From: a virus
Direction: 5' to 3' (one strand)
DNA: 64,000 nt
IMG/VR virus record: IMGVR_UViG_3300029258_003221
Coordinates: 124,001-188,000 of that record
The number at the start of each line of letters is the position of its first letter. The first letter of the stretch is position 1. Shown piece by piece: positions 4,593 through 63,991 of the stretch. A model generated the notes under the pieces. It ran no database searches and had not been told where the DNA came from. It saw nothing but the letters and a program-made list of their open reading frames with translations. Position numbers and translations under genes: made by a program.

Positions 4593-4771
4593 GAATTTTT
4601 TCCCGCTGTATATTTGAGCAAGTCGAAATATGAGGCATTCTAAGATAGTCCCAGAATATCAAAAAATTAGATGTTTAAATTTTTGTAACATGAATTGTTT
4701 AAACCCTCTGGTGTGGTAAAATTTCGACTTCTATAACAAATAGGGGGGTGTGGTGTCAGCGGGGAGCCGAG

Positions 4772-4797
4772 GGTGGGGTCTCCCCCACCACCTTTTT
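4772..4797 (+). terminator. Hairpin terminator at the junction before the minus-strand array
   Basis: GGTGGGG (4772-4778) pairs with CCCCACC (4783-4789) across a 4-base loop and is followed by TTTTT at 4793-4797, the layout of an intrinsic terminator on the plus strand. CCGAG/CTCGG outside the stem (4766-4770 and 4799-4803) could extend it. It would stop rightward transcription from the 1-4.3 kb genes before the array. Confidence 0.55.
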
Positions 4798-4847
4798 GGC
4801 TCGGAATTGTTGAATTAAAAGTTTTGCAACACCAATGTTCTGGGTGT

Positions 4848-5075
4848 CTAAGACCAATGTCTTGGCTTCATTACATCTTCCATCCAGCGGATGAATTCCT
4901 CCCGTGTCAGATCTGGAGGAGCCTCCACCGTCTGTATGTCCTCAGCATCACGCTGATCCAGTGATTCAATGAGTGGTGGCTGCTGTTCGGCCCATGCTCG
5001 TCGTGCCTCGTACTCGCTGCTGTCCTGTTCGTCGATGGCTGGACAGTCACCGAGGTCATCCGTATGCCCCTGCAT
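4848..5075 (-). CDS. Small acidic protein, unknown (75 aa)
   Basis: Start ATG at 5075 is chosen because GGGAGCACGACA precedes it; the longer frame to 5123 has no ribosome site and would run through the leader. The product is hydrophilic and ends in ...MKPRHWS. The stop TAG shares its G with the hexamer (TAGACACCC). Its leader carries a degenerate copy, CTCACCCACTAACACC. This is the last gene of the array in reading direction. Confidence 0.65.
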   Translation of the reverse strand: MQGHTDDLGDCPAIDEQDSSEYEARRAWAEQQPPLIESLDQRDAEDIQTVEAPPDLTREEFIRWMEDVMKPRHWS

Positions 5076-5149
5076 TGTCGTGCTCCCGTGGGTGGTGTTA
5101 GTGGGTGAGCCCCAGTGACTCACCCTCTCAACACTACTTAACCGGGTGT

Positions 5150-5596
5150 CTAGTAGTATGCTTTCCTCATCTCCTTTTCAAACATTGCGATGTCATCACG
5201 GCACCGTTGAGCCATGTCCTCCAGCACATGAACAGTTCCGATGACGTGGCTGGCTGGTTGTTCTTTGAGGGTAGCGATTGCCTTCTCAAGGGTTCGCAGT
5301 TCAGTGTGTGCCTTGTCAGCGGCTTCAGAGTTCTGTCGAAAGATCTCATCAGCGTTGGCGTTGAGAGTGTCCTCCCATTCCTGTTCAACTTTGAGGCACT
5401 CTTCCCAGAGTTCCTGTTCCTCGTCTTCAGCTTCCTGCTGGAGCAGGTCTTCGTGTTCCTGAATCAGTGCCTTGCTGAGGGCTCGCTGTGTCTTGCGTCG
5501 TCCCCGTTTGTCGTAAGTGTCAGACCCGTGAGTCAACCAGCAGTCTCCGTTGACCTTGCGTGCTCGTCGTGTGGCGTTGGCGATGGCTGAAACCAT
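5150..5596 (-). CDS. Coiled-coil protein, unknown (148 aa)
   Basis: AGGAGCACAACA precedes ATG 5596. After a basic N-terminus (TRRARKVNGDCW, KRGRRKTQRAL) residues 45-140 are almost continuous charged heptad-like helix rich in E and Q, suggesting a coiled coil. Stop TAG overlaps the hexamer (TAGACACCC). The leader contains the perfect hairpin at 5622-5652. Confidence 0.75.
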   Translation of the reverse strand: MVSAIANATRRARKVNGDCWLTHGSDTYDKRGRRKTQRALSKALIQEHEDLLQQEAEDEEQELWEECLKVEQEWEDTLNANADEIFRQNSEAADKAHTELRTLEKAIATLKEQPASHVIGTVHVLEDMAQRCRDDIAMFEKEMRKAYY

Positions 5597-5621
5597 TGTT
5601 GTGCTCCTGTGTTTCCCTTAT

Positions 5622-5652
5622 GAGTGGGCAGTGTTGTTGTCACTGCCCACTC
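5622..5652 (-). other. Perfect 12-bp intergenic hairpin
   Basis: GAGTGGGCAGTG pairs with CACTGCCCACTC over a 7-base loop; the hexamer GACACCC lies 3 bases 5' of it in the transcript (5656-5662). It sits in the leader of the 5150 gene. No U-run follows on the minus strand, so a simple terminator is not indicated. Confidence 0.6.
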
Positions 5653-5665
5653 TCAGGGTGTCAGC

Positions 5666-5863
5666 TTAGGCAGCCCATGCGTGCTGTCGTGTATCGTTGA
5701 GAGCGGCAGAGAGGGCAGCGTTTGTTGCTTTGGTGGCTGCTGCGTCGTAGCCTCTCAGAAAAGTTTCGCCTTCGTGGCTTTCGGGATCAAGACCATGACT
5801 CATTGGCCATCGATCTTCACCGTGTTTGTAGGCATCCCATCCCATTTGGTAATACTTGTTCAT
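5666..5863 (-). CDS. Small protein, unknown (65 aa), C-terminus WAA
   Basis: GGGGAGAACG precedes ATG 5863. The sequence has a Y-x-x-G-W-x-A-y-x-x-G...F-L-R-G-Y-D-A pattern that recalls ribosome modulation factor-like proteins of phages and bacteria (gW..G...P....lrGy), but the match is weak. It ends in ...QHAWAA, one of several double-alanine ends in the array. TAA is followed after three bases by GACACCC. Confidence 0.65.
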   Translation of the reverse strand: MNKYYQMGWDAYKHGEDRWPMSHGLDPESHEGETFLRGYDAAATKATNAALSAALNDTRQHAWAA

Positions 5864-5909
5864 CGTTCTCCCCTGTTGGTGTTGTGTTGACAGTGTTTGA
5901 GTGGGTGTC

Positions 5910-6113
5910 TCATCCGAGTGGCACTGCTGGCATAATCCGCTTCATCACTGACCTGATCTCGTCGGTGACTTCACCGCCGTTAGCGACATGTCCCGCCAGA
6001 TCAATACATGCAGTGATTGCACTGGTTCTGAGGTATTTGTCATTGCGTGGTGAGTCACCTTTGAAGGCATCAACGTCTTCGGCAGTTCTCTTGTTGTAGT
6101 TCATGTCGAACAT
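5910..6113 (-). CDS. Small helical protein, unknown (67 aa)
   Basis: CAGGAAAACA precedes ATG 6113. The middle (SAITACIDLAGHVANGGEV) is a likely amphipathic helix. TGA is followed directly by GACACCC (5903-5909). No family recognised. Confidence 0.65.
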   Translation of the reverse strand: MFDMNYNKRTAEDVDAFKGDSPRNDKYLRTSAITACIDLAGHVANGGEVTDEIRSVMKRIMPAVPLG

Positions 6114-6237
6114 TGTTTTCCTGTGGGTGTCTTAGAGCAACTGAAAACGAACTGACGGGTTTGCCTTGACCACATTCAGTCCGTTATCAGTTGTTCTACA
6201 TGGCTCAGTCTCAGGAGGAGGAATTGAAGTGTTGCCG

Positions 6238-6435
6238 TTAGGCAGCACGTCGTCGGCTTGATCCCTTCTTAGTTCGTTTCAGGGTCAGCGGTTGTTTCTG
6301 ACGGTCAATCAGACGAACACCGTCAGTGGCGTTGTTTAACATCGCATAGTCGCACCTCGCTTCCTGTTCTTGATCAGAATTATATTCGGTTACACCCATT
6401 CCGGGAGCGATGACAACAAATCGGTTCTTGAACAT
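6238..6435 (-). CDS. Small basic protein, unknown (65 aa), C-terminus RRRAA
   Basis: AAAGGAGAGCCAA precedes ATG 6435, so this start is preferred to the frame's upper end at 6483. The C-terminus TKKGSSRRRAA is strongly basic with a double alanine. The 106 bases after its stop (6131-6237) hold a frame that is open but lacks a start and ends in TAA right before GACACCC, perhaps a gene remnant, plus an imperfect AGAGCAACTGA/TCAGTTGTTCT stem. Confidence 0.65.
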   Translation of the reverse strand: MFKNRFVVIAPGMGVTEYNSDQEQEARCDYAMLNNATDGVRLIDRQKQPLTLKRTKKGSSRRRAA

Positions 6436-6479
6436 TTGGCTCTCCTTTGTTGTTGATGATGTTCTGTTACTGGGTGTCG

Positions 6480-6656
6480 TCAATCACCAACATACCGAGC
6501 GAGTTCCATCTCACGTCTGAGTTTTTTCATCTCTTCCGGTTTGGCGTTGTCCATTCTTTTGCGAACGTCCTGTTGCCAGCATCGGTGATAGTGGTAGTGA
6601 TCTCCGGCGTTTCCTTCGTTAGGTCGGCCACAGAATTTGCACTTACCTTTTTTCAT
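6480..6656 (-). CDS. Small Cys/His zinc-binding type protein (58 aa)
   Basis: CGGAGCGAAACC precedes ATG 6656. MKKGKCKFCGRPNEG starts the protein with a C-x-x-C knuckle, followed by HYHYHRCW, which together could hold one zinc ion. The rest is charged helix (MKKLRREMELARYVGD). Its TGA is followed by CGACACCC. Nucleic-acid binding is possible but not shown. Confidence 0.7.
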   Translation of the reverse strand: MKKGKCKFCGRPNEGNAGDHYHYHRCWQQDVRKRMDNAKPEEMKKLRREMELARYVGD

Positions 6657-6700
6657 GGTTTCGCTCCGTTGTGGTGTTGTTGATGTATGTTTATTAGGTG

Positions 6701-6734
6701 TCCACCGGGACAGGGAGCCAACTGTCCCGGTGGA
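6701..6734 (-). other. Perfect 13-bp intergenic hairpin touching the hexamer
   Basis: TCCACCGGGACAG pairs with CTGTCCCGGTGGA over an 8-base loop. On the minus transcript the 3' arm runs straight into GACACC (6697-6702 plus strand). It lies in the leader of the 6480 gene and has no U-run. Confidence 0.6.
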
Positions 6735-6752
6735 CTCACCACCAACCCACAC

Positions 6753-7043
6753 TCACATATTAAACCATTTGCCGCTGATGGCATCAGCGTATCGTTCCCC
6801 AGTGTAGTGAGGATCATCGCTGTTTATTTTGCTCCAACCGTAGGTTGTCACGTGCATTCGGTACTGCCCTGACGTGGCTTTGTCCCCTCGTTTGCGTCGT
6901 CGTCGTTCAACAGCGTATCGTTGAATCATCTTGTCAAAGCTGTCGAAGGCGAGTTCAATTTCCCGTGGCTTATCAGGGTCACGTTCCATGTGATTGAATT
7001 GTACCCGCATTGAAAAGCTGACAGTTTGCGGGTGTGTAGTCAT
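6753..7043 (-). CDS. Unknown protein (96 aa)
   Basis: GGAAGGACGACAA precedes ATG 7043. A basic patch VERRRRKRGDKA lies in the middle and aromatic residues are frequent in the C-terminal third (YGWSK, HYTGERY, KWFNM). The leader is a clear copy of the block GACACCCACTAACACAACATC. No family recognised. Confidence 0.7.
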   Translation of the reverse strand: MTTHPQTVSFSMRVQFNHMERDPDKPREIELAFDSFDKMIQRYAVERRRRKRGDKATSGQYRMHVTTYGWSKINSDDPHYTGERYADAISGKWFNM

Positions 7044-7084
7044 TTGTCGTCCTTCCGTTGTTGTTGATGTTGTGTTAGTGGGTG

Positions 7085-7237
7085 TCAGCTTTTGACTTCC
7101 ACCTGTTCTCTTGGGTTGACGAAGAACGTGTTTCCTTTGCTGTCCATAGCTTCATTGTCGCCAGTTTTGATACATTCTCCATTCCAGCAGTGAAACGGGC
7201 GATTCTTGGGCAGTGTGTGAAACTCAACCATTTTCAT
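7085..7237 (-). CDS. Small protein, unknown (50 aa)
   Basis: AAGAGGGACGAC precedes ATG 7237. It contains a single C...C pair (FHCWNGECIKTG). The stop TGA lies inside the hexamer (TGACACCC), and its own leader is GACACCCACTAACACAACATC. Confidence 0.65.
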   Translation of the reverse strand: MKMVEFHTLPKNRPFHCWNGECIKTGDNEAMDSKGNTFFVNPREQVEVKS

Positions 7238-7281
7238 GTCGTCCCTCTTAAGGAGTGTTGGTGATGTTGTGTTAGTGGGTG

Positions 7282-7485
7282 TCAGACAAAGCAGGACAGT
7301 GTTTGACTTGGGTGATGAGGTTGAACGGCTTCCCAGCAATTCAGAGCAGGCACCCAGATGCCGCCTGTTGTGTAGTTGGGATTGTCAACGATGAGGAACT
7401 CGGTTGTTCCGTTGTTCTGTCGATCATCGATGACCCAGCCGTGTTTCTCTTCACCGTTGATTGTGTAGAAGGTTTCGTTGTTCAT
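7282..7485 (-). CDS. Small protein, unknown (67 aa)
   Basis: AAAGAG lies 3 bases before ATG 7485 and GACACCCTGTAA lies just upstream. The chain is tryptophan-rich (HGWVIDD, IWVPALNCWEAV) and beta-like. TGA overlaps TGACACCC (7277-7283). Confidence 0.65.
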   Translation of the reverse strand: MNNETFYTINGEEKHGWVIDDRQNNGTTEFLIVDNPNYTTGGIWVPALNCWEAVQPHHPSQTLSCFV

Positions 7486-7504
7486 GGCTCTTTACAGGGT
7501 GTCG

Positions 7505-7630
7505 TCAAGCAGCCCGACGTTCGTATTTCTTTTCCCGTCGTTTAGCTCTTTCCCTGTCCTTTTTTCTTCCTTGTTCACGTTTCTGGCGACGGCGATCTCT
7601 GTCGTGTCCCGTCTCTTCTCTGATGTACAT
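7505..7630 (-). CDS. Tiny highly basic protein (41 aa), C-terminus RRAA
   Basis: ATG 7630 follows directly on the hexamer (AAAGAGACACCCATG). The 41 residues are about half K, R and E, for example GHDRDRRRQKREQGRKK, and end ERRAA. The stop TGA is followed by CGACACCC, so the whole gene lies between two hexamers. Composition suggests nucleic-acid binding or disorder; no family recognised. Confidence 0.6.
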   Translation of the reverse strand: MYIREETGHDRDRRRQKREQGRKKDRERAKRREKKYERRAA

Positions 7631-7657
7631 GGGTGTCTCTTTGAGGGTTTGAAGAAT

Positions 7658-7682
7658 GCCACCGGGATTTGTTCCCGGTGGC
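7658..7682 (-). other. Perfect 10-bp intergenic hairpin
   Basis: GCCACCGGGA pairs with TCCCGGTGGC over a 5-base loop in the 60-base gap downstream of the 7693 gene. No U-run follows on the minus strand. Confidence 0.5.
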
Positions 7683-7692
7683 GTTAGGTTGT

Positions 7693-8094
7693 TTACGCTG
7701 CTCGCTGTGCGGCGAGTTCGGCGTCGGCCTGTTCCATTCCCAGCAGTACCAGAGCCGGGATATTAGTTTGTCCACCTTCCATGTGTTTGAAGGACTCGCA
7801 GAATTCATCCCATTCCCTTGCCGACCGGATAGGCACATCATTGCCGTATCGTGGTTTTTCGTACCATTCGGCGATATTAGGCCCACGTCTCTTGTGGCTG
7901 AACTTCACCGTATCCCCTCGTTTGGTGACACAAACAAAGGTGTTGTCAGTGAAAGTGATTCGATAGCCACCGGGAACCATTGTTTCCTTGAGTTCCCCTT
8001 TCTTGTTGGTTGTCATGATCGGAATCCAGTTTCGCTTTGCTTCTTTGATTCCGATTGGCTTACACGGTTTCAGTGTTTTGATGGCCTGCACCAT
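7693..8094 (-). CDS. Unknown protein (133 aa), C-terminus QRAA
   Basis: CAGGGAGACGATC precedes ATG 8094. Basic beta-rich N-terminal part with K/R clusters, then a helical C-terminal third (REWDEFCESFKHMEGG ... ADAELAAQRAA). No domain recognised. Confidence 0.7.
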   Translation of the reverse strand: MVQAIKTLKPCKPIGIKEAKRNWIPIMTTNKKGELKETMVPGGYRITFTDNTFVCVTKRGDTVKFSHKRRGPNIAEWYEKPRYGNDVPIRSAREWDEFCESFKHMEGGQTNIPALVLLGMEQADAELAAQRAA

Positions 8095-8144
8095 GATCGT
8101 CTCCCTGTTAGGAAAGTGTTGTTGATGTTTTGTTATTGGGTGTC

Positions 8145-8303
8145 TTAGGGGACTTCAACCCAATCGGTATAACCTTTGACTCGCCATGCTTCGTTGTAGA
8201 TATCGTCACCATCGTAATTGACAGTCACAACATCGAACTGTTCGAGGATCAGAGTTCGGAAGTAGAGTTTTCCGTTCTCTCGTTTGAATTCCACCGATTC
8301 CAT
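8145..8303 (-). CDS. Small protein, unknown (52 aa)
   Basis: CGGGAGACGAAACA precedes ATG 8303. The sequence (FKRENGKLYFRTL ... VVTVNYDGDDIYNEAWRVKG) suggests a small beta barrel. TAA is followed directly by GACACCC. Confidence 0.65.
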   Translation of the reverse strand: MESVEFKRENGKLYFRTLILEQFDVVTVNYDGDDIYNEAWRVKGYTDWVEVP

Positions 8304-8341
8304 TGTTTCGTCTCCCGTTGTTGGTAGTCTGTCAGTGGGTG

Positions 8342-8611
8342 TCAGACTCCACAAACTTTGTAGACGAGTTTGGTCCAGAACTTGTAGTCTTTTTCGACGA
8401 GCTGGTCGAAAACTTCCTGACTGGCTTGCATGGCGATGGATTCAAACTGTCCACCAACAACCATTTGTTCTTGCCATTTGCTGTCGGGGAAGGACTCTCG
8501 TTTTTCTTCGGCGATCTTTTTACGACGTTCGTATTCTTTGTCGCCGAGGTTGTTTCTGTGGCGTTGTTCGACTTCATTTTCTGGTGTGATTTCCCATTGA
8601 ACAGCGGACAT
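8342..8611 (-). CDS. Charged helical protein, unknown (89 aa)
   Basis: TGGAGGACGAAC precedes ATG 8611; the frame is open far upstream but that part crosses the hairpin leader. Residues 15-50 are a charged helix (YERRKKIAEEKRE). TGA lies inside TGACACCC at 8337-8343. Confidence 0.65.
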   Translation of the reverse strand: MSAVQWEITPENEVEQRHRNNLGDKEYERRKKIAEEKRESFPDSKWQEQMVVGGQFESIAMQASQEVFDQLVEKDYKFWTKLVYKVCGV

Positions 8612-8656
8612 GTTCGTCCTCCAGTTGAGTGTTAGTTGTTGATGGTTTGTTAGTGG

Positions 8657-8686
8657 GTGTCCCCCGGCGTTGTTGCCGGGGGACAC
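8657..8686 (-). other. Perfect 12-bp hairpin whose stem contains the hexamer
   Basis: GTGTCCCCCGGC pairs with GCCGGGGGACAC over a 6-base loop, so in the transcript the 3' arm ends in GACAC and continues as the leader CCACTAACA. The hexamer is therefore half buried in a stem. It lies between the 8697 stop and the 8342 gene. Confidence 0.65.
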
Positions 8687-8696
8687 GGTTCGTTGG

Positions 8697-9542: not shown

Positions 9543-9618
9543 GTTTACTCTCCCCGAGTGTTAGAAAATGTTTTGAGCGTTGTTTGCTCACTGCCCTATC
9601 GCCGGGTGTCAAAAACAT

Positions 9619-9649
9619 CACCCCCGACAACCCGGTATTGTCGGGGGTG
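9619..9649 (-). terminator. Intrinsic-type terminator on the minus strand
   Basis: CACCCCCGACAA and TTGTCGGGGGTG form a perfect 12-bp stem over a 7-base loop; in the minus transcript it is followed by ATGTTTTTGACACCC, so a U-run lies between the stem and the next hexamer. It would end transcription coming from 9.7 kb, with the new unit for the 8697 gene starting at or after the hexamer. Confidence 0.6.
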
Positions 9650-9957: not shown

Positions 9958-10365
9958 TTACTCAACCCGGTCGTGGACTGAGATTGGTGCAGTGTAGTTA
10001 ATGTCATCATGCACCATTGCATTAGTGGTGCTGATGTAGCTGCCACCAGCCATGACGTGTTTGCCATTGCGAATTGCTCCGACCCACTTGGCGGCATAGG
10101 GGTTATCGAGACTTGGCGGTCCTGATCGTGGCAGGCAGAGGATCAGACTGTCATTGGTCAGGAAGTGACAACCTTTGACAATCTCTCTCACCTGACCATA
10201 TCTGGGCAGATTTCCATCGACATAGACACGCCAGACATTGATTGAGTCTCTTCGGCGGGTGATGCCATCATTGGTGCAGTCGTGGTGATTGATCAGCACC
10301 GTCATTCGGTGAACATGGGCACTGCATCGTTGTGCAATTGTTGGATTGGTCGTGGCGATTGTCAT
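9958..10365 (-). CDS. Unknown protein (135 aa)
   Basis: TGGGGAGAGACA precedes ATG 10365. The sequence is beta-rich with several glycines (VYVDGNLPRYGQVREIVKG, KHVMAGGSYIST). TAA is followed directly by GACACCC, and the leader upstream is GACACCCAGTAACCAACC. No family recognised. Confidence 0.7.
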   Translation of the reverse strand: MTIATTNPTIAQRCSAHVHRMTVLINHHDCTNDGITRRRDSINVWRVYVDGNLPRYGQVREIVKGCHFLTNDSLILCLPRSGPPSLDNPYAAKWVGAIRNGKHVMAGGSYISTTNAMVHDDINYTAPISVHDRVE

Positions 10366-10420
10366 TGTCTCTCCCCAGAGAAATGTTTTGTTGTTGATGG
10401 TTGGTTACTGGGTGTCAGAT

Positions 10421-10560
10421 TGGAGATGGAGGGACTCGAACCCTCGTCCAAACTTATCACGTTATCCCAAACACGAGCGAAACATGGGCCTTTTCTCGTT
10501 GTCGCCTACCCTATAGCGGCGACTGTTCAGCGTGATAGCCTGTCAATACCATTCATCCCC
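10421..10560 (-). ncRNA. Compact tmRNA-like RNA (140 nt)
   Basis: 5' GGGGATG (10554-10560) pairs with CATCTCC (10422-10428), giving a 7-bp acceptor with one G-U, and 10421 supplies the discriminator A. Directly inside lies a perfect T-arm: GAGGG, loop TTCGAGT, CCCTC. The 5' acceptor strand is followed by GGTATTGACAGGC, close to the GGATTCGAC signature of tmRNA, and the T-arm is preceded by TTTGGAC as in tmRNA. TATCACG (10531-10537) pairs with CGTGATA (10455-10461) as a P2-like helix. The body holds only two hairpins (GTCGCC/GGCGAC and ACGAG/CTCGT). There is no anticodon arm, no clear alanine-rich tag; a frame AHVSLVFGIT ends in TGATAA. CCA is not encoded. Half the length of ordinary tmRNA. 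Confidence 0.6.
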
Positions 10561-14499: not shown

Positions 14500-15525
14500 T
14501 TATGCCACCATTTCCAGAGCGAGCTGGAATGCTCGTTCCTTAAAGGCAGCCCCGTCATTCTCGATAACCGACTTGTATCGGTTCTCGTTCGTTGCTCGTT
14601 TGTCACCACGAACAGTCCGACGTTTGCCATGGTCAATAGCCTCAGTCACACTGTTAAACAGTGCCCACCAAGTGCCCTTGACTCCCTTCATCTGCTGTCC
14701 GGGCTGTTTGAACATATAGCGAAGTTCGCCAACCTTTCGGTCGTGAGCATTCTTTGCTCGGTTGTATCCTCGTTCCGTTGAGTACGTTTCCTCAACAGGT
14801 GTCGGATACAGTTCTTCCATGTAATCCGCTGCACGTTCTTTGTCGTATCCCACCAACAGTTTCTGTGCGTTTTCACGAAACAGGGTGAACTGTCGATCAA
14901 ACTGACTGATGGCGTCTTTCGCCGCATCCAGCTTGAGTTTCATGTCACCAGAGTGCCGAATGGCAATCTGATTCGTGTTGCCTTCCAGTGCTGCACGAAC
15001 CGTGTTAGCACAAACGGCACGAACGCTTGTAGGTGTCAGAATTGTTGATCCGCCACCATGCTGAAGTTTCGCCATGACATAGCGAAAACTCACATCGCCG
15101 GGAACAACTTCGTCATAGGACGGCATACGAGCGAGCAGAACAACGCTCTTTCCGCCATTCAGGACGAAGACTGATTCGTATCGAATCACGCCGTCCATGT
15201 GCAGGGAATCGAGAAACTCGAATCCTTCACGGTTCTGGAGTGGTTCGTACTTGTCACCCACTACGTGGAGGAGTTTGCCGGTGTCTGTTCTGACCAGACG
15301 ATACCAACCGTCATCGGCGTTGCCGTCAGTGTCACAGACAGGACGTTTTTCCACCTTGAAGAAAATTGAAGGAAGAATTTCCTCAATTTCCTGTGAACAG
15401 GGTGCCAGACCTTCACCCGGTCGCCAGACTTCACCAAGGCCATGCCATGCGGGTGAATTCGCATAGAGTGCTTCGTGAGCCAATCGACCATCGGACAGTC
15501 TTACTGCTTCAATCTCATGTGACAT
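14500..15525 (-). CDS. DUF932 / TIGR03299-type phage-plasmid protein (341 aa)
   Basis: TGGGAGAGTGACT precedes ATG 15525. MSHEIEAVRLSDGRLAHEAL and the W-H-G-L-G motif at residues 28-31 (SPAWHGLGEVW) are typical of the DUF932 family found in plasmids and phages, as are VRAVCANTVRAAL and the C-terminal WWALFNSVTEAIDHGK. The family has no firm biochemical role; it is often near recombination or plasmid maintenance genes. Hexamers at 14798, 15032 and 15280 are internal. Confidence 0.85.
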   Translation of the reverse strand: MSHEIEAVRLSDGRLAHEALYANSPAWHGLGEVWRPGEGLAPCSQEIEEILPSIFFKVEKRPVCDTDGNADDGWYRLVRTDTGKLLHVVGDKYEPLQNREGFEFLDSLHMDGVIRYESVFVLNGGKSVVLLARMPSYDEVVPGDVSFRYVMAKLQHGGGSTILTPTSVRAVCANTVRAALEGNTNQIAIRHSGDMKLKLDAAKDAISQFDRQFTLFRENAQKLLVGYDKERAADYMEELYPTPVEETYSTERGYNRAKNAHDRKVGELRYMFKQPGQQMKGVKGTWWALFNSVTEAIDHGKRRTVRGDKRATNENRYKSVIENDGAAFKERAFQLALEMVA

Positions 15526-15610
15526 AGTCACTCTCCCAAAAAGAAAACTTTTGTTTTGGCGATTGTTCGCCACTGTCCCATCATAGGGTGTCCACTTTTA
15601 CTCCCAGCGA

Positions 15611-20324: not shown

Positions 20325-20717
20325 TCAAACAGCAGCCATCTTCATGTAAAGAACAACCTGCTGAGCACTCATTTTGTAAACCTTGCCGTTCGACACGCTC
20401 TTCACCAGAATCGGATACTTTTTGGCACGAGTATTCGCACCAATGATCTCGAACGTGTCATTGCCGTTGCTGATCTCTTTTCCAAGATCATCAGGGGACA
20501 GACCCCACAGAACAGCATTTCGCTTGAAAGTTTCGCCGTCCTTCGTGTTCACTGAACCATCAGAGTTTTCAGTTCCAACTTCCAGCTTGAACGTGGCTGT
20601 TGTGTGATTGAATGAAGCACGACCAACATCAATTTTCACACCATCAAAGTCCAGATGTTCATCCAGAGCTGACTGGATGGCGTCACGAAGTTCACGTACT
20701 TTTGCCCTGTCAAACAT
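20325..20717 (-). CDS. Conserved phage-type protein (130 aa), C-terminus KMAAV
   Basis: CAGGGAGAATCAA precedes ATG 20717. MFDRAKVRELRDAIQSALDE, then G-V-K-I-D-V-G-R-A-S-F, FKLEV and a basic end NTRAKKYPILVKSVSNGKV match a pattern I know from many phage hypothetical proteins (helix, then a small barrel ending in KYP-x-x). No function is known to me. TGA lies in the hexamer. Confidence 0.7.
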   Translation of the reverse strand: MFDRAKVRELRDAIQSALDEHLDFDGVKIDVGRASFNHTTATFKLEVGTENSDGSVNTKDGETFKRNAVLWGLSPDDLGKEISNGNDTFEIIGANTRAKKYPILVKSVSNGKVYKMSAQQVVLYMKMAAV

Positions 20718-20766
20718 TTGATTCTCCCTGTTGAAAAGAATTGTCTTACACCCAACTGTCAGGGTG

Positions 20767-21015
20767 TCAAACTTGAACAAGCAACCAGTAATGTGGCGTT
20801 GAATGATTGCAGTTAACAGTAGTCTTTTTAGGACGGTATGTCAGCCAACCGCCCACAGACCAGCCCAGATAAAAACCCATCAGACATTTGCTGCGACCTT
20901 CAGCCAATAGCTTTCGGTCGTAGATTTCAGTGTCTTCAGGCAATTGTTCGCCTGCGGTTATCTCTCGATAACCATCAGGGCAAGGCCACTGTTTCCGAAC
21001 TTGACTCTTCGCCAT
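20767..21015 (-). CDS. Unknown protein (82 aa)
   Basis: TGGGAGAGTCAA precedes ATG 21015. WPCPDGYREITAGEQLPEDTE starts a domain seen in small phage proteins (p-GYR-l--ge-i--gD). TGA lies in TGACACCC; leader GACACCTGATTTGGGAGAG is very short. Confidence 0.7.
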   Translation of the reverse strand: MAKSQVRKQWPCPDGYREITAGEQLPEDTEIYDRKLLAEGRSKCLMGFYLGWSVGGWLTYRPKKTTVNCNHSTPHYWLLVQV

Positions 21016-30849: not shown

Positions 30850-31284
30850 TCAGAAGTCGATGCCATCGTCATAGTATCCATTGTTTTCATAGATGGGATC
30901 TGTTTCGTCCATATCGAGATCATCAATGTTGAGGGTGTATTCACCATTTTTGCTTTCGATCCAGTCGAGAATCTTTTCATGAATGGCGAGGATTTGTTTT
31001 TCGTAGGCTTCACCCCGTCGTTGATCGCTTGCGTTGATTTCTTTGTTTAGACAAAGATCGGTGCGATTTTTGATTCTTTTGAGGAAAGCGGCAGCGGGAC
31101 CGGCAGTTTCGCAGCCATAGCCTTCCCACCAATAATCTCCATCGTTGTAGTAACGATAAACGAGACGATTGATCGCTCTTAGCACTTCCCCTTCGATAGT
31201 TTCACAGTTGCCCATGCAGGACACGAGAGTATCGAACAGTTTTTCATTTCGTGCTTCGTTTTTGTCGGAGACAAAGATGGTCAT
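30850..31284 (-). CDS. Unknown protein (144 aa)
   Basis: TAAGGAAAGAAT precedes ATG 31284. Helical; EGEVLRAINRLVYRYYNDGDYWWEGYGCETAGPAAAFL matches a pattern common in phage and plasmid proteins (vlR-l----YRyyNDGD---GYG-e-----a-fL). Acidic tail. TGA is followed by GACACCC. Confidence 0.7.
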   Translation of the reverse strand: MTIFVSDKNEARNEKLFDTLVSCMGNCETIEGEVLRAINRLVYRYYNDGDYWWEGYGCETAGPAAAFLKRIKNRTDLCLNKEINASDQRRGEAYEKQILAIHEKILDWIESKNGEYTLNIDDLDMDETDPIYENNGYYDDGIDF

Positions 31285-31293: not shown

Positions 31294-31548
31294 TTAGAGT
31301 TCATCAATGGTAAGAGTGACGGTTGGACGATTGATACGTCCATAGAGGCTATCATTTCTGGCACATTTAACTTCGGCGGTTTCGGGGTCAACGTAGAAGG
31401 TAAATTCTTTGACGTATGTTCCCGCTTCGAGTCTGGTCATATCGTGGGTGTCAGGAATTGCTTTGAGGACGTTGGTGAGCAGTTTTCGTCCTTTTTCAAA
31501 GTCATCACCGATGATATCTGTGTCGATATTCAGGCTGATTGCGGACAT
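31294..31548 (-). CDS. Unknown protein (84 aa)
   Basis: TAAGGAACAAACC precedes ATG 31548. Small alpha/beta chain (DFEKGRKLLTNVLKAIPDTHDM, YVKEFTFYVDPETAEVKC). Hexamer 31447 encodes PDTH. Confidence 0.65.
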   Translation of the reverse strand: MSAISLNIDTDIIGDDFEKGRKLLTNVLKAIPDTHDMTRLEAGTYVKEFTFYVDPETAEVKCARNDSLYGRINRPTVTLTIDEL

Positions 31549-37260: not shown

Positions 37261-38025
37261 TTATACAGGTGTCCCCGATAGTGTGGTGAACAGCCTGAGA
37301 TATTCTTTGGGGTTCTTTTTCATCAGAGTTTCGATGGCATCGAGAATCTTCTGAGGATTGTTTTCCTTTCCTCTTGCCCGCTGCCCTTCTTCAATTGCCC
37401 GACTGACCGCTGCTACCTTCTGCCATTTAGCAGCGATAGACTTCTGTTCATCGGTCATCGGAGGAACTGACAGATCGATAGGTTCAAGGTCTGTCGGGTC
37501 GATATCCCCCACCCTTGGCTTTGCCTCATAAATGTTTGAGTAGTTCGGAGTGAATGAGGTTTTGACGTTATCGCTGCCAAACTTTTCACCGAGTACCATT
37601 GCCGGGTAGTAGTTATAAGAGATTGAACCATCGACGTTTCGTCGTGGGAGATCGTACTCTCTCCACTGACCGACAAGAGCAATCGGCTTCAACTTTGTTT
37701 CACCATCTTCAATGAAGGCTTCACAACGCACATAGTTGTTGAATCCGTTGTTGTAGTGAACAATCTGTCCCGGCTTCAGAGAAGCATAGAAACTTTCGTG
37801 GTCATCAGCTCTGCCTGACCAGAATTCTTCTGAAGACAAAGCAAGATGAATTTCTTCTCTGGTGAAGGCACGGGTCACACCGGAATAATCCGGGCAATCA
37901 ACAATCTGGCAAATCCAGACTCCCTGTCCACGGGAATGTTTGACTTCCCAACATGGGTTCGCATCAGCATGATGCCAATGAAACTTCAGACCTTTGGTGA
38001 TTCGTTTGCGAGTTGCTGTCGGCAT
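37261..38025 (-). CDS. Unknown protein (254 aa)
   Basis: CAGGGGACAACA precedes ATG 38025. First 70 residues basic with W-H-H-A-D-A-N-P-C-W and a G-V-T-R-A-F-T-R-E-E-I-H-L-A box; the middle reads like a small SH3 or barrel (LKPGQIVHYNNGFNNYVRCE); the C-terminal 80 residues are helical. Ends LSGTPV at the hexamer. No enzyme motif seen. Confidence 0.7.
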   Translation of the reverse strand: MPTATRKRITKGLKFHWHHADANPCWEVKHSRGQGVWICQIVDCPDYSGVTRAFTREEIHLALSSEEFWSGRADDHESFYASLKPGQIVHYNNGFNNYVRCEAFIEDGETKLKPIALVGQWREYDLPRRNVDGSISYNYYPAMVLGEKFGSDNVKTSFTPNYSNIYEAKPRVGDIDPTDLEPIDLSVPPMTDEQKSIAAKWQKVAAVSRAIEEGQRARGKENNPQKILDAIETLMKKNPKEYLRLFTTLSGTPV

Positions 38026-38049: not shown

Positions 38050-38403
38050 TTATGTACTGTTGATGGGTGTCAACGAAGTACAGGAATTGACTTTTAGATA
38101 CGCTCTTGTTGAACCATAGGATTCGCCATAGATCGGTTCGTAAGTGAAATTAGCTTTACGAGACAGAAGTTGTCTGACTATCGGATCGAGTCGAACAGCA
38201 TCTGCGAGAGTATCATAGGTGACAACAACGCACGACATACGGTCGCCATCCCATCCACGGGTATCATCTTTGGCTGAATGTAAACCACGATCTTCCTTCA
38301 GTTCTTTGTTTACATCATCAGCAAGAGCAGTTGCTCTTTCGTATCCGCACATCAGATCGTATGCCACTCTGACGTAACGTTCTTCTTTTCTGATATGTGG
38401 CAT
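38050..38403 (-). CDS. Unknown protein (117 aa)
   Basis: AAAGGCAACTC precedes ATG 38403. Helical basic N-terminus, then MSCVVVTYDTLADAVRLDPIV and a Y/G-rich segment. Hexamer 38066 lies near the C-terminus as SLTP. Confidence 0.65.
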   Translation of the reverse strand: MPHIRKEERYVRVAYDLMCGYERATALADDVNKELKEDRGLHSAKDDTRGWDGDRMSCVVVTYDTLADAVRLDPIVRQLLSRKANFTYEPIYGESYGSTRAYLKVNSCTSLTPINST

Positions 38404-44032: not shown

Positions 44033-44401
44033 TTAGACGTTAGGTAGAGATCGATCTTCCACTCGAACATTCTGGACAAAGATTTGTGCCAGTTTCATGC
44101 TTGCTTCATTGCGAAGATCGCACGTACTGGCACTGACTCCCTTTTCGGCAAGATGTTCCAGCCAGCCAACACAGAATCGAGTGATGCCCTGTTGCAGTGT
44201 TCGGTGATCTCGGGACATTTTGTCAATGGCATAAGCACATGCTTCGTCGCCACTCATCTTGTTGACGAATTGGGAGAACGTCTCAGCGAATTCTTCACCA
44301 CGTTTCTGATCCTTATAGTCAATTTCAGACTGTGGACCTTCTTCAATGCGGTCGAATGCTGAGGAGTATGAAGTTCGGTAGAATTTGGTTTCAGTGGTCA
44401 T
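44033..44401 (-). CDS. Helical protein, unknown (122 aa)
   Basis: CAGGAGTCGATGA precedes ATG 44401. Helices FAETFSQFVNKMSGDEACAY and RTLQQGITRFCVGWLEHLAE. The leader carries GACACCTGATAATTAACC. No family recognised. Confidence 0.65.
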   Translation of the reverse strand: MTTETKFYRTSYSSAFDRIEEGPQSEIDYKDQKRGEEFAETFSQFVNKMSGDEACAYAIDKMSRDHRTLQQGITRFCVGWLEHLAEKGVSASTCDLRNEASMKLAQIFVQNVRVEDRSLPNV

Positions 44402-44447: not shown

Positions 44448-44753
44448 TCAGGTGTCTTTGATGAACAAGACAGCTTGATTTGCTGAACCTGAAAACAGCA
44501 CTTCGTCTTCAACGTCATCATCTGGATACGGATACACAGTAGCCACTATCCCGTTTCCTTTGCCTTTATCACAGAAATTAACGTAATAGTCTGATTCCCT
44601 AGAAAGGTTAAAATCCTCACCGCCAAAACCTACGCCATGACCTGAAAACTCAAACCCAATCTCGCCCAATTCCCTCATTGCTTTGGCAATCGGCCAACGT
44701 GGCTCATACCACTCAATTTCCTGTTCGATATCTTTTTGGGCTTGTGTGGTCAT
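44448..44753 (-). CDS. Unknown protein (101 aa), ends IKDT
   Basis: AAAGGGAAATC precedes ATG 44753. Glycine-rich centre (GFEFSGHGVGFGGEDFNL) in a beta context. Stop formed by GACACC-TGA. Confidence 0.65.
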   Translation of the reverse strand: MTTQAQKDIEQEIEWYEPRWPIAKAMRELGEIGFEFSGHGVGFGGEDFNLSRESDYYVNFCDKGKGNGIVATVYPYPDDDVEDEVLFSGSANQAVLFIKDT

Positions 44754-56932: not shown

Positions 56933-56941
56933 GATCCACCT

Positions 56942-60119: not shown

Positions 60120-60130
60120 GATGAATGTCC

Positions 60131-60799: not shown

Positions 60800-61211
60800 C
60801 AAGTTCAAAATCCTCCAGAACGTGTTCATCCACAGCATCAGTGCGGATTTGTCCATTTGGGAACACGTTCAAAATGTAGAAGGTGTCTTCTTTGTGCAAT
60901 TCTGATTGCATTAGATATGCCACCTGCTTGACTGCATCTTCGTAGGAAAGGTGAGGGTATTCAGTGTCACCATCAATGCCCCACTGCATCAACTCACCAG
61001 AGCCACAGGCAGCAGCAACCCAAAATCCAACCTGACCACAATCAGTCTGGTCAAGACAATCTTCTTCAAGATTGTGAGCAAAGACTTCTTCACAGTGGCC
61101 TTGATCTTCCCTGATCTCAATACAGGGAGCAACTGTACTAAACTGAATGCCTTCGTCAACATCAATGTATGCCAAAAGGTGACCTGTATTGGTGCAAATC
61201 TTGAGTTTCAT
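60783..61211 (-). CDS. Unknown acidic protein (142 aa), C-terminus IEA
   Basis: ATG 61211 overlaps the previous stop (ATGA). Five Cys in the first half (EDCLDQTDCGQVGFWVAAACG). Hexamer 60882 encodes E-D-T-F. No family recognised. Confidence 0.65.
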   Translation of the reverse strand: MKLKICTNTGHLLAYIDVDEGIQFSTVAPCIEIREDQGHCEEVFAHNLEEDCLDQTDCGQVGFWVAAACGSGELMQWGIDGDTEYPHLSYEDAVKQVAYLMQSELHKEDTFYILNVFPNGQIRTDAVDEHVLEDFELDAIEA

Positions 61212-61483
61212 GCTACTGCCTTTTTGGTCAAAAGTTCAGCCACACCATAAGCGTATTTTGAAGTGTAATCAACGTGGCCTGATGAAGTGGTTTCAATGCG
61301 AAACAAATCTTCGACAGATGGGGGTTTCACCCCATTTTGTTCTGCCCATTTAATCGCAGCTTGATGAATGGCGTTTCTTTCATTTTCAATCCATTCATCG
61401 GACTCACATACTGAACGATACTCCTGTTCCGCAACAAGAGCATCGTACAAAGTCCGTGCTGGTTCAAAATGAGGACGGAACAT
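61208..61483 (-). CDS. Helical protein, unknown (91 aa), C-terminus KKAVA
   Basis: GAAAGAAAAACT precedes ATG 61483; the frame above lacks a ribosome site. ARTLYDALVAEQEYRSVCES then KWAEQNGVKPPSVEDLFRIE. It has no hexamer. Confidence 0.65.
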   Translation of the reverse strand: MFRPHFEPARTLYDALVAEQEYRSVCESDEWIENERNAIHQAAIKWAEQNGVKPPSVEDLFRIETTSSGHVDYTSKYAYGVAELLTKKAVA

Positions 61484-61493
61484 AGTTTTTCTT

Positions 61494-61868
61494 TCAGGCA
61501 ACTTTGTCGTAAACGGCATCCAAAGCAGTTTCGATAGCCTCTTCGACAACCAGTTTGATATGACCTTCAACGGGTGTCCCCTTTTGTTCAAAAGCATTTA
61601 CTAAAGCAAGAGTGAAACTCTCAATGGTGTTGAGAGCCGTGTTGTATTCAGCACGGGCGATAATTTCATCTTCAGATTCACTTGCTGAAGGATTGTATGC
61701 GTCGTGGGTATATTCAGCTTTTGATCCATCACAACTGTAAAAACAATTTGATGTATCACAATGAGGGCAAACTTCACGATCCAAATCACTGACGATGGAA
61801 CCGCCACCTTCGCCATCAGTGTCAATTGTCAGAGTCATGCCATGGCAGGAAAGGTTAATGATCTTCAT
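61494..61868 (-). CDS. Conserved plasmid protein with CxxC pair (124 aa), C-terminus DKVA
   Basis: AAGGAGTACAAC precedes ATG 61868. MKIINLSCHGMTLTI...GGGSIVSDL...CPHCDTSNCFYSCDGSKA and a helical second half match a family spread over plasmids of many bacteria (MkIinL---gmTltl----g----S-l----CP-c----C---CD-sqa). Role unknown; the Cys set could bind metal. Hexamer 61573 encodes G-T-P. Confidence 0.8.
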   Translation of the reverse strand: MKIINLSCHGMTLTIDTDGEGGGSIVSDLDREVCPHCDTSNCFYSCDGSKAEYTHDAYNPSASESEDEIIARAEYNTALNTIESFTLALVNAFEQKGTPVEGHIKLVVEEAIETALDAVYDKVA

Positions 61869-61919
61869 GTTGTACTCCTTGTGAGAATTAAGTCATCAAG
61901 ATCCATTAAATGGGTGTCT

Positions 61920-62360
61920 TCAAGCGTTGTTCACAATGTCGAGCAGCGGATTCTTCAACGGTTCAATTTCACGAACATCCTTCAGGTAATCCAACCACTC
62001 TGGTCGGTCATGGTTTCGGACATTCAGTTTGTTGTCTACCCATTTGGCAGCATCTTCCAATACCTGTTCTTTTGTGTCTACGAGATTCCATCCGGTGTCA
62101 TGAATGAGACAATTGCTTTTGAAACGCCAACCCCAACAGGTTTTGCGTTCTACGACCTGCGGGACAGAATCCCCAATGGATCGCTTGGGCAACTTAAAGT
62201 CAATTTGACAAACTTCGTCGCCAGCAGCGATGACAATAAATGCTGGTTCAATGTGAATCCCAACTTGACTCTTTCGCTCATCGCTCATGTCAGCATCGAC
62301 ATAACCCCAGCGAACCCATTCACCATGTTTGATCTGGATGTGCCAACCGTCTTCATTCAT
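61920..62360 (-). CDS. Unknown protein (146 aa)
   Basis: GAGGAAACGTGGAAAAACC precedes ATG 62360, which overlaps the previous stop (ATGA). W-rich strands (EWVRWGYVDADM, KTCWGWRFKSNC) and helical end. TGA is followed by AGACACCC. Confidence 0.65.
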   Translation of the reverse strand: MNEDGWHIQIKHGEWVRWGYVDADMSDERKSQVGIHIEPAFIVIAAGDEVCQIDFKLPKRSIGDSVPQVVERKTCWGWRFKSNCLIHDTGWNLVDTKEQVLEDAAKWVDNKLNVRNHDRPEWLDYLKDVREIEPLKNPLLDIVNNA

Positions 62361-62583
62361 GGTTTTTCCACGTTTCCTCGTCGAAAGATTGCATCAACTT
62401 TTTCATCATCGACGAAAGTTTTGGTCACTGAAATGCCACGTTGTTTTCGGTATTCCTGAATGTCAAGAACAGCCTGTCGCCAACGTGGATAAAGTGGATC
62501 GGGGCGGCATAGCCTATCTTGAGCATCGTGCCAATAAACGCTGTTGCATTGGCACAGGCTGAAATGAATGTTCTTCGTTTCAT
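62357..62583 (-). pseudogene. Frameshifted small gene (about 75 codons)
   Basis: ATG 62583 overlaps the upstream stop (ATGA) and opens MKRRTF, but the natural continuation lies in another frame: HFSLCQCNSVYWHDAQDRLC ... AVLDIQEYRKQRGISVTKTF ... DAIFRRGNVEKP, which is a phage/plasmid-type protein. The distance from ATG to the TGA at 62357-62359 is 227 bases, not a multiple of 3. A -1 slip after ACA-TTC would restore it. True mutation, sequencing error or programmed slip cannot be told apart here. Confidence 0.55.
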
Positions 62584-62861
62584 GTCACGATTTCCTTAAC
62601 TTGTTCCCAGTTGTATGGGGAGTCGCCAATAAAAATTGTCAATTCATCTTCCTGAATTTGACACAAAAGATTGTCAAGAACGATGTTATTACGACGATCT
62701 TCCATGATCAACCGAAGAACATCAAGATCATCATCTGGAATTGAATCCCAGAGATTTCCATAGGCTGATCCGTAGTCATCGTAAATCCGATAACCAAAGG
62801 AAACATGCCCTGTTCTCACGTCTTCAAATTTAGTTGGCTCAATGCAAAGTCGGTTACTCAT
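62580..62861 (-). CDS. Conserved small phage/plasmid protein (93 aa)
   Basis: CAGGAGCTATCTGA precedes ATG 62861. TKFEDVRTGHVSFGYRIYDD ... NLWDSIPDDDLDVLRLIMED ... WEQVKEIV matches a common small family (k-t-v--g--~G-R-yDDY---Y-N--d-iPddd---L--v). Function unknown. Confidence 0.75.
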   Translation of the reverse strand: MSNRLCIEPTKFEDVRTGHVSFGYRIYDDYGSAYGNLWDSIPDDDLDVLRLIMEDRRNNIVLDNLLCQIQEDELTIFIGDSPYNWEQVKEIVT

Positions 62862-62877
62862 TCAGATAGCTCCTGAT

Positions 62878-63150
62878 TTAGATTTTAGGCGAACGAGTTG
62901 TTACAGGAACACCTTTGAATTTCTTCTCAGTGTTCTTTGGAAGAATACCTGAAGTGATCAACTGATCTTCAATGTCTTCAAGCATGGAATCTATTTGATC
63001 GTCCATGTCGTTGTAGAAGAGAACACCACTCTCAATAACATCATGATTCAGATTGCCATGAATCTCTTCAATTTGATCTTGCGAGAGATTTAAACCATGT
63101 GCATCAGTGACAATCTGAATATCATCGATTGTAGTTTCCCAAGCTGACAT
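62878..63150 (-). CDS. Conserved small phage/plasmid protein (90 aa)
   Basis: ATAGGAGAAATTT precedes ATG 63150. MSAWETTIDDIQIVTDAHGL ... LNHDVIESGVLFYNDMDDQI ... IEDQLITSGIL fits a spread family (WETT--Dv--vl--h---------l---~-~--eaAL-G~dmd-Qt----~EIe-QL---g). Function unknown. Confidence 0.75.
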   Translation of the reverse strand: MSAWETTIDDIQIVTDAHGLNLSQDQIEEIHGNLNHDVIESGVLFYNDMDDQIDSMLEDIEDQLITSGILPKNTEKKFKGVPVTTRSPKI

Positions 63151-63168
63151 AAATTTCTCCTATTCTGA

Positions 63169-63324
63169 TTATCTGATCCCATCAAGCTTTTCTTGAAGAA
63201 TGATTCTTTCTTTTTCGTATTCACCAATAGTCGCTTTATGTGATTGAGTTTTCACAAACAGCAACACAATGATTACAGCCAGCACAAGGATGAACAGGAC
63301 ATTTGATTTCAGCCAATTCCACAT
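63169..63324 (-). CDS. Small membrane protein with coiled tail (51 aa)
   Basis: ATAGGAGAAAACA precedes ATG 63324. MWNWLKSNVLFILVLAVIIV continues the hydrophobic run to LLFV, then a basic and charged helix (YEKERIILQEKLDGIR). Typical single-span phage or plasmid peptide. Confidence 0.6.
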   Translation of the reverse strand: MWNWLKSNVLFILVLAVIIVLLFVKTQSHKATIGEYEKERIILQEKLDGIR

Positions 63325-63333
63325 TGTTTTCTC

Positions 63334-63597
63334 CTATGCAACTGCGAGTTTTCTTACAAACTCTTCACGGGTGTCCCCAACTGTTTCCCAAAAAGACCGA
63401 CCTTCAAATGAATCAAGTCTTTCTTTGACACTGACGTTCTCAACATCAGACATCTTCAACCAACGACCGACAACATTTGCGTGTTCTTCAGATCGTGTCA
63501 CAACACAAACAAAACGATCATTTGTGATATTGACAGCAACAACTGGAACACAGTTATCCAGCAAACATTTAAGTTTCAGCTCTGCAACCTGTGGCAT
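63334..63597 (-). CDS. Unknown protein (87 aa), C-terminus KLAVA
   Basis: GAAGGCAAG precedes ATG 63597. KLKCLLDNCVPVVAVNITND then helices; hexamer 63370 encodes G-D-T-R. The leader holds the element 63611-63681. Confidence 0.65.
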   Translation of the reverse strand: MPQVAELKLKCLLDNCVPVVAVNITNDRFVCVVTRSEEHANVVGRWLKMSDVENVSVKERLDSFEGRSFWETVGDTREEFVRKLAVA

Positions 63598-63610
63598 CTT
63601 GCCTTCTTTC

Positions 63611-63681
63611 AGTTAAAGTTTCCAAAACAAAAGGAATAGACAACCGATGGCTTTGTTCTACCCGCTACGGCAGTTTTAACT
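63611..63681 (-). ncRNA. Leader stem-loop closed by AGTTAAA/TTTAACT
   Basis: AGTTAAA (63611-63617) pairs with TTTAACT (63675-63681) with about 57 bases between. Weaker than other elements of this kind (A-U rich, 7 bp). Confidence 0.35.
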
Positions 63682-63748
63682 ATCTGGACTAGCCCTTTAG
63701 CATCAGGCACTGCTTACTTCATCCAGTTTTGCACGGTTGCTGATTCCA

Positions 63749-63991
63749 TTACGATTCTTCATCAGGTGTCTCATTTGGACCTTCCAGCTTCCCCTGATCA
63801 TCGACATGAGGAAGCAGGAATTGCTCCAACTGATCTTTCAGGGCCTCAAGACCGAGTGCTTCAACCTTGCTGGTAAAGAACCCTTCAACCTCACCTTTTG
63901 CTTCAGTTACAGTTCGATCAATCGCCTCATTGAACTGACTCTGAATGAAAGGAACAGTTGATCGCAGCTTAGAGACAACAGCACCAACCAT
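63749..63991 (-). CDS. Helical acidic protein, unknown (80 aa)
   Basis: ATG 63991 (MVGAVVSKLRSTVPFIQSQF) has no clear ribosome site before the window edge; it could extend further upstream. ALKDQLEQFLLPHVDDQG and an acidic end with N-E-T-P-D-E-E-S, where the hexamer encodes E-T-P. Confidence 0.55.
   Translation of the reverse strand: MVGAVVSKLRSTVPFIQSQFNEAIDRTVTEAKGEVEGFFTSKVEALGLEALKDQLEQFLLPHVDDQGKLEGPNETPDEES

Follow-up and report, generated by a model that had tools for sequence, protein, structure and literature searches.

A one-way six-letter word as a putative, phage-specific gene start signal in a huge bacterial virus

Why would a huge bacterial virus carry one exact six-letter DNA word about once per gene, always facing the way the gene is read? 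Here we address this question for the word GACACC in virus record IMGVR_UViG_3300029258_003221 (234,631 bp), starting from a window of 64,000 nucleotides (positions 124,001 to 188,000 of the record), which is the whole stretch of DNA first analysed. A preliminary description, made from the sequence alone, had counted about 153 copies on the coding strand of a 59-kb gene array, with none in reverse orientation and none in the flanking 4.7 kb, and had proposed lagging-strand primer sites of a T7-type primase as one reading. Relatives use the same arrangement with other words, and the word most likely marks where transcription of each gene starts, in a code that each virus changes.

The word and its array

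The observation was confirmed exactly. The plus strand of the window contains 153 GGTGTC and no GACACC, which corresponds to 153 sense and 0 antisense copies of GACACC, whereas 14.4 copies would be expected in the window array at even base composition, 13.5 under an order-0 model and 19.1 under an order-2 Markov model (11.2 for the reverse orientation). GACACC is the top 6-mer by order-4 z-score in the window and by order-2 z-score in the array. Beyond the window, the array runs to about 212 kb of the record, with a total of 180 sense copies (22.9 expected) and 0 antisense copies (16.2 expected), and its density falls from 37 to 11 copies per 10 kb. The rest of the record is depleted in both orientations (5 and 15 copies against ~23 and ~22 expected), and the word is near absent from other minus-strand gene blocks. 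The interval of about 390 bases given in the preliminary description is an average; local spacing ranges from ~286 to ~830 and is more regular than Poisson near the edge (CV 0.42–0.45). A chimeric assembly was rejected because an independent 55.7-kb contig of the same phage reproduces the array and its sharp edge, and because the whole record shares the same absent palindromes.

The preliminary description was also right that the word is not a product of protein or codon bias, a point it had set as a test. By our gene calls, 106 of the 153 copies in the window lie inside sense coding sequences; over the coding sequences of the array all three frames are used (78/35/16), and shuffling of synonymous codons gave 26.8 ± 4.5 copies against 129 observed. 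A degenerate transcription factor motif was rejected because no one-mismatch variant of GACACC is comparably enriched. The features of the array are listed in Table 1.

Table 1. Features of the GACACC array and its flank (window coordinates; LR756511, G004 and G007 are relatives of the phage).
Position	Strand	Feature	Details
4752..63770	-	Array of 153 exact GACACC (coding strand) among minus-strand small genes	First and last copies at 4752 and 63765-63770; continues to about 88 kb in window numbering (record 212 kb)
1..4751	+	Flank without the word in either orientation	Plus-strand repeat-protein genes (836-2476, 2527-4302) converge on the dense end of the array
7278..7283	-	Typical leader copy	...TGTCT-GACACC-CACTAACACAACATCACCAACA...; start codon of the next gene (7085-7237) 46 nt downstream
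8656..8661	-	Copy directly abutting a hairpin	Hairpin CCCCGGCAACAACGCCGGGG (8661-8681); before gene 8342-8611
10411..10416	-	Copy 4 nt after the 3' end of the phage tmRNA	Before gene 9958-10365
10421..10560	-	tmRNA gene (Rfam RF00023, 53.7 bits)	Non-coding unit of the array also bounded by the word (10728 upstream, 10411 downstream)
15587..15592	-	Copy 67 nt before the start of the DUF932 gene	Homologues carry GCTGTAC 36 nt (LR756511) and TTGTACC 54 nt (G004) upstream
14500..15525	-	DUF932 protein gene	PF06067, E=4.8e-38
20763..20768	-	Copy 51 nt before gene 20325-20717	Homologue in G004 has its word 36 nt upstream
38066..38071	-	Copy 46 nt before gene 37261-38025	Homologue in G007 has GGTACGCT 48 nt upstream
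44451..44456	-	Copy 55 nt before gene 44033-44401	Homologue in LR756511 has GCTGTAC 41 nt upstream
31447..31452	-	Intragenic copy 168 nt before gene 30850-31284	Homologues have their word 46 nt (LR756511) and 37 nt (G004) upstream

Linkage to genes and dialects in relatives

The word is linked to genes, not to spacing or to a fixed DNA strand. In the phage of the window (G000), 117 gene units carry exactly one copy, compared to 79.8 ± 7.2 after circular shifting; the observed 117 was reached in none of 2000 shifts. A total of 64% of the copies are located within 180 nt upstream of a start (40% expected); in the relative LR756511 (19.5–100 kb), the corresponding figures are 91% and 43%. Intergenic copies sit at a nearly fixed distance of ~46 nt before the next start codon, and the medians of six sets range from 40 to 54 nt, while the distances to stop codons scatter in most sets. 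However, units over 600 nt in this phage carry 2.6 copies, and the many intragenic copies are not predicted by a strict rule of one promoter per gene.

Relatives were identified by their terminase and are designated by accession number or by a contig handle (G003, G004 and so on). Several have the same arrays with other exact, one-way words, including AGCTGTAC (LR756511), TTGTACCA, TTGTACCC and CCGGTACGCT, and the core words have almost no one-mismatch variants. In LR756511, the word flips together with the genes at 19 kb. The capsids of G004 and LR756511 are 92% identical and their words differ, yet the same orthologous genes carry the word at the same distance (16 in both, 3 and 9 in one only, 25 in neither; odds ratio 15, P=1.2e-4). 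G000 shows the same weakly (5/2/3/13), in a small test that depends on the distance cut-off (P=0.026, 0.22 and 0.027 at 75, 120 and 180 nt). Most array terminators with a hairpin and a T-run are followed by the word (15 of 18 in G004, 7 of 9 in LR756511 at 0–19 kb, 4 of 7 in G003), and none lie just downstream of it.

No clear array was seen in G005, G006, G011, G012, G015, G016, LR756508 (400 kb searched) or the cultured Microcystis phage Mel-JY01, although several of these are fragments. Scanning of k-mers also produced false leads, namely tRNA T-arms in LR756511 at 240–300 kb, a 36-bp tandem repeat (GAGTGAACCA) in G007, and a giant-protein repeat in G003 at 260–300 kb. A comparison of G004 with G024 for gain or loss of cassettes gave no result because the two look like the same phage. 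A paired stem upstream of the word gave only a weak signal in G004 and G000 and none elsewhere.

Sequence logos of G000, G003, G004, LR756511 and G007 show no conventional −35/−10 pair around the core, and the array leaders of G000 and G004 show no other enriched promoter hexamers. Late genes of most relatives show TATATA, and G003 has a separate, T4-early-like class (TTTACAACC...GTGGTATnAT), which does fit a sigma-70-type promoter. A profile search with PF00940 found no T7-type RNA polymerase over threshold in G000, LR756511, G003, G004 and G007, several of which are fragments (T7 control, 9.9e-110), and searches for multisubunit RNA polymerases were also negative. A sigma-70-family factor is encoded at 90260–91228 of G003, at 80491–81333 of G007 and in LR756511; none was found in the contigs of G000, G004, G008 or G009, which are fragments.

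Interpretation and comparison with known systems

We consider it most likely (probability about 0.6) that GACACC is the invariant core of a phage-specific transcription-start signal, either a promoter element or the box of a promoter activator, which stands in the direction of transcription before most genes of an auxiliary/early gene array. In this view, a dedicated factor, for example a phage sigma factor or an activator working with host RNA polymerase, would read the core with near-absolute specificity and start an mRNA with a leader of a few tens of bases. Each phage of this huge T4-like lineage would have its own word and presumably a matching factor, and wrong-way copies or copies elsewhere would be selected against because they would start antisense or mistimed transcripts. 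A review states that jumbo phages lacking RNA polymerase often encode sigma factors that are likely used at phage-specific promoters (PMC13282480). The analysis itself demonstrates the exactness and polarity of the word, its linkage to individual genes, its anchoring to starts, the dialects, and the retention by orthologues in two relatives; that the signal acts as DNA at initiation, and which factor reads it, is inferred from sequence alone, without transcript data.

The interpretation offered in the preliminary description was only partly supported. The primase reading is not supported, since relatives use words without the GTC of a T7-type primase site (AGCTGTAC, TTGTACCA, CCGGTACGCT), the words track gene starts, and polarity follows the genes. 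Other DNA-strand functions, such as a KOPS-like translocation signal or another replication or packaging polarity mark with gene linkage as a by-product of free intergenic space, are very unlikely for the same reasons and because orthologues keep the word gene by gene and one per gene exceeds what spacing alone would give, although polarity is kept for ~85 kb in G000 and ~300 kb in LR756511, with density falling away from one point and spacing more regular than Poisson. Recombination boundaries, another of its suggestions, are not supported because most copies in this phage are inside genes, unlike integron-like cassette sites, and intergenic copies are anchored to the next start. An anti-restriction orientation bias, as for the type III EcoP15I sites in T7, would fit a non-palindromic exact hexamer in strictly one orientation and the absence of many palindromes from the record, but it does not explain the 8-fold enrichment, the per-gene linkage or the start anchoring, and is the least likely of the alternatives.

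Its suggestion of an mRNA signal comes closest. Long polycistronic early transcripts may be cut at the word by a sequence-specific endonuclease (RegB- or MazF-like), with upstream hairpins and tmRNA/tRNA protecting the resulting 3' ends, or the word may be a 5'-leader element, which is not excluded. The exact sense-strand hexamer without tolerance would fit this reading, as would the copies abutting hairpins and tmRNA/tRNA 3' ends in two phages, the intergenic copies of G000 that also hug the upstream stop codon, its flanking hairpins that rarely have T-runs, and the weak excess of site-specific pairing next to the word in G000 and G004. Nevertheless, we regard it as unlikely, because an mRNA site does not require the absence of antisense copies, distances in the relatives are anchored to the next start rather than the previous stop, and the order of terminator, word and gene in G004 and LR756511 favours a DNA-level start signal. 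Stoperator-like sites, at which a phage repressor or roadblock protein would bind to silence the array after the early phase, as the L5 repressor does, are more doubtful still. Copies distributed inside genes would fit G000, but the tight distances to the next start and the position of copies after terminators do not, 180 exact copies far exceed the roughly 25–30 per genome of L5, and no lysogeny genes were seen, without a dedicated search for them.

A further-reaching reading, which remains tentative, is that the exact word is private to each phage and is replaced at most or all of ~100 sites at once as the recognising factor changes, while each gene keeps its signal in place. This would be a coevolving regulatory dialect, comparable to DNA-uptake dialects but for transcription. 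If the main reading is correct, it would provide a rule for annotating gene starts and expression class in huge uncultivated phages from sequence alone, several natural pairs of word and reader for studying how a regulator and ~100 of its sites change together, and possibly orthogonal promoters. It makes the otherwise opaque small-gene arrays of huge phages testable.

In the literature searched, no paper on LR756511 or on such arrays was found, and the closest known systems each differ from the array words. The Start-Associated Sequences (SAS/ESAS) of Cluster K mycobacteriophages (PMC3203893) are likewise asymmetric repeated words, almost always in one orientation, confined to the non-structural half and located before gene starts; they are absent from hosts, and the ESAS consensus differs between phages. 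However, SAS is 13 bp long, lies 3–7 bp from the start and contains the Shine-Dalgarno core, whereas the core here is 6–16 bp, lies ~40–55 nt upstream without a Shine-Dalgarno core (none in GACACC), reaches up to 180 copies and changes wholesale between close relatives. The stoperators of Cluster A mycobacteriophages (L5 repressor sites; PMC6550527) share the asymmetry, the predominantly single orientation relative to transcription and the genome-specific motifs that track a recognising protein, but the words described here are start-anchored and follow terminators, and no repressor or lysogeny was identified. The early, middle and late promoters of T4-like phages are also phage-wide sets, read by host RNA polymerase with phage factors, but the array words have no −35/−10 pair and are a separate class confined to the array. 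The promoters of phage-encoded RNA polymerases (T7-type; phiKZ/AR9 nvRNAP) are likewise short, exact, polar and phage-specific start signals, but no T7-type or Rpb2-type polymerase was detected in the phages searched.

The array of GACACC words
The stretch under study, positions 124001–188000 of a 234,631-bp IMG/VR virus record, contains 153 copies of GGTGTC and no copy of GACACC on its plus strand, i.e. 153 copies of GACACC on the coding strand of the gene array and none in reverse, and neither form occurs in positions 1–4751. Over the whole array, at 128.7–212 kb of the record, there are 180 sense copies against 22.9 expected from an order-2 Markov model, and 0 antisense copies against 16.2 expected; GACACC is the most over-represented and the most strand-asymmetric 6-mer in this region. 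Elsewhere in the record, both orientations are depleted. The density falls from 37 to 11 copies per 10 kb away from a sharp edge, and an independent 55.7-kb contig of the same phage (G000) shows the same edge. Within called coding sequences, 129 copies were observed against 26.8 ± 4.5 after shuffling of synonymous codons, and 0 reversed copies against 11.8 ± 3.0. None of the 18 one-mismatch variants approaches the enrichment of the exact word. The observation made in the preliminary description, a strand-specific hexamer that is not explained by codon bias, is therefore confirmed and strengthened.

The record also lacks several other short sequences. CCWGG (265 expected at order 0), CAGCTG, CTGCAG, GTCGAC, GGATCC, TCTAGA and CGATCG are all absent from its 234 kb (loci L001–L010), and TTCGAA is absent from the array (50 expected) but occurs 44 times elsewhere.

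Arrays with other words in related phages
The terminase of G000 (PHROG 2, T4-like) is 53% identical to that of LR756511.1, a 595-kb uncultured phage; the two genomes are broadly collinear in the structural module and share array genes. Searches of viral contigs with the terminase and portal returned many further relatives, numbered here with G. In LR756511, the over-represented one-way word is AGCTGTAC, with 55 copies of its GCTGTAC core on the plus strand in 0–19 kb among plus-strand genes, and then on the minus strand among minus-strand genes, with density again falling away from the meeting point, although this strand switch at 19 kb could be an assembly inversion. Contig G004 (341 kb) has AATTGCRATTGTACCA (84 copies of TTGTACC, sense only within the array), G003 (533 kb) has TTTGTACCCTA (17 copies), G007 has GTTTCYTCCYGGTACGCT (37 sense, 0 reversed), and G009 and G008/G014 have still others, 40–50 bases long. 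The cores in LR756511, G003, G004 and G007 share GTAC, and GACACC is the most divergent of these five. In LR756511 and G004, the exact core has almost no one-mismatch variants. Many words were scanned in this k-mer discovery, but the z-scores and zero reverse counts of the main arrays are far beyond what that would explain. No clear array was seen in contigs G005, G006, G011, G012, G015 and G016, several of which may lack the region, or in two more distant phages; most records are fragments of uncultured phages.

Features of the array and of related records (window, the stretch under study; L numbers denote loci of the respective genome)
Genome	Coordinates	Feature
G000	record 128.7–212 kb	GACACC array
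G000	window 836–4302	Two plus-strand proteins built of repeated DGPA/WYWEG-type (MORN-variant-like) units just left of the array edge
G000	window 10421–10560	Phage-encoded tmRNA inside the array, tag DNEKRPMFRSCLG
G000	window 14500–15525	DUF932 gene
G000	L003:6804–9329	Portal gene; the protein carries an intein-like insertion of ~230 residues (CLAGDT...VHNC), also in the LR756511 portal
G000	L002:11337–12443 and L008:11813–12991	Two TnpB-like (IS605 OrfB / Cas12f-like) genes
LR756511	L015, ~19.0–19.3 kb	Switch of array polarity and gene direction; two opposite copies of the word flank a near-palindromic stretch
LR756511	190451–191336 (L024:10451–11336)	Sigma-70-family gene reading as two adjacent ORFs (one with region 4); intact homologues in G003 and G007
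G003	L155–L174, 0–200 kb	About 20 T4-early-like promoters, TTTACAACC-N12-GTGGTATnAT, almost all in the gene direction
G007	L210, 115371–116986	43 tandem copies of a 36-bp repeat with GAGTGAACCA and ATTTTAACA

Linkage to gene starts and orthologous genes
Genes were called with a simple codon-usage script rather than a standard annotator. In G000, 117 start-to-start units have exactly one copy of the word, against 79.8 ± 7.2 when the copies are shifted circularly (0 of 2000 shifts), and 64% of the copies lie within 180 nt upstream of a start, against 40%; in LR756511 (19.5–100 kb), the latter value is 91% against 43%. Intergenic copies have median start distances of 40–54 nt with narrow spread in six sets, whereas distances to the previous stop scatter in most sets. 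Copies per unit are nearly flat between 200 and 600 nt in the dense part of G000 but rise to 2.6 in units above 600 nt, so that long genes carry extra copies or contain uncalled genes. Two thirds of the copies in the window lie inside genes (106 of 153), which remains odd, whereas most copies in G003, G004, G007 and LR756511 (0–19 kb) are intergenic; the intragenic copies do not cluster at a fixed distance from the next start, and the word in G000 is also the shortest.

Terminators with a hairpin and T-run in the arrays are followed by the word in 15 of 18 cases in G004, 7 of 9 in LR756511 (0–19 kb) and 4 of 7 in G003, and are never closely preceded by it. This order (terminator, word, ~42 nt, SD and start) is that of separate transcription units, but it does not hold in G000 (3 of 19) or in LR756511 beyond 19 kb (1 of 54).

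LR756511 and G004 are close (capsid 92%, terminase 79% identical), yet their words differ. Among reciprocal-best orthologues in the arrays, 16 carry the phage's own word within 75 nt in both phages, 3 only in G004, 9 only in LR756511 and 25 in neither (odds ratio 15, P = 1.2e-4). The distances agree, as in 46/53, 45/43, 37/42, 54/58 and 51/55 nt, and 12 of the 16 pairs lie on opposite record strands. The DUF932 gene has GACACC 67 nt upstream in G000, GCTGTAC 36 nt upstream in LR756511 and TTGTACC 54 nt upstream in G004. Over all comparable array genes of G000, the association is 5/2/3/13 (P = 0.026 at 75 nt, 0.22 at 120 nt, 0.027 at 180 nt), which is suggestive only.

Inferred function and comparison with known systems
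The analysis establishes an exact, polar and start-anchored signal, about one per gene, with a phage-specific word that is kept gene by gene; that it acts in transcription initiation is inferred from sequence alone. Other upstream signals exist for other gene classes (TATATA before late genes of most relatives, and the T4-early-like promoters in G003), so the word looks like a third class confined to the array. No phage RNA polymerase was detected in the phages searched. A sigma-70-family factor with regions 2 and 4 is present in G003 and G007; in LR756511 it reads as two adjacent ORFs, region 4 being detected there. Jumbo phages lacking polymerases are reported likely to use such factors at phage-specific promoters (PMC13282480). 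We therefore favour a promoter element or activator box, with a probability of about 0.6.

The main rival, which we consider unlikely but possible, is an RNA-level cleavage or leader role, because in G000 the copies touch stop codons, hairpins and the 3' end of the tmRNA, and T-runs are rare. The orthologue comparisons tie the word to the gene and not to a DNA strand, and are hard to reconcile with a primase, replication-polarity or restriction role. The interpretation in the preliminary description is partly supported: its leading proposal, lagging-strand primer sites of a T7-type primase, is not supported, whereas the mRNA processing signal that it also listed corresponds to the main rival.

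No description of arrays like these in huge phages was found in the papers searched, which did not include most subscription literature. Start-Associated Sequences (SAS) of Cluster K mycobacteriophages (PMC3203893) and stoperators of Cluster A (PMC6550527) share the one-way orientation and the phage-specific consensus, and SAS also share the restriction to non-structural genes. However, SAS differ by sitting in the ribosome-binding site, and stoperators differ by acting as repressor roadblocks.
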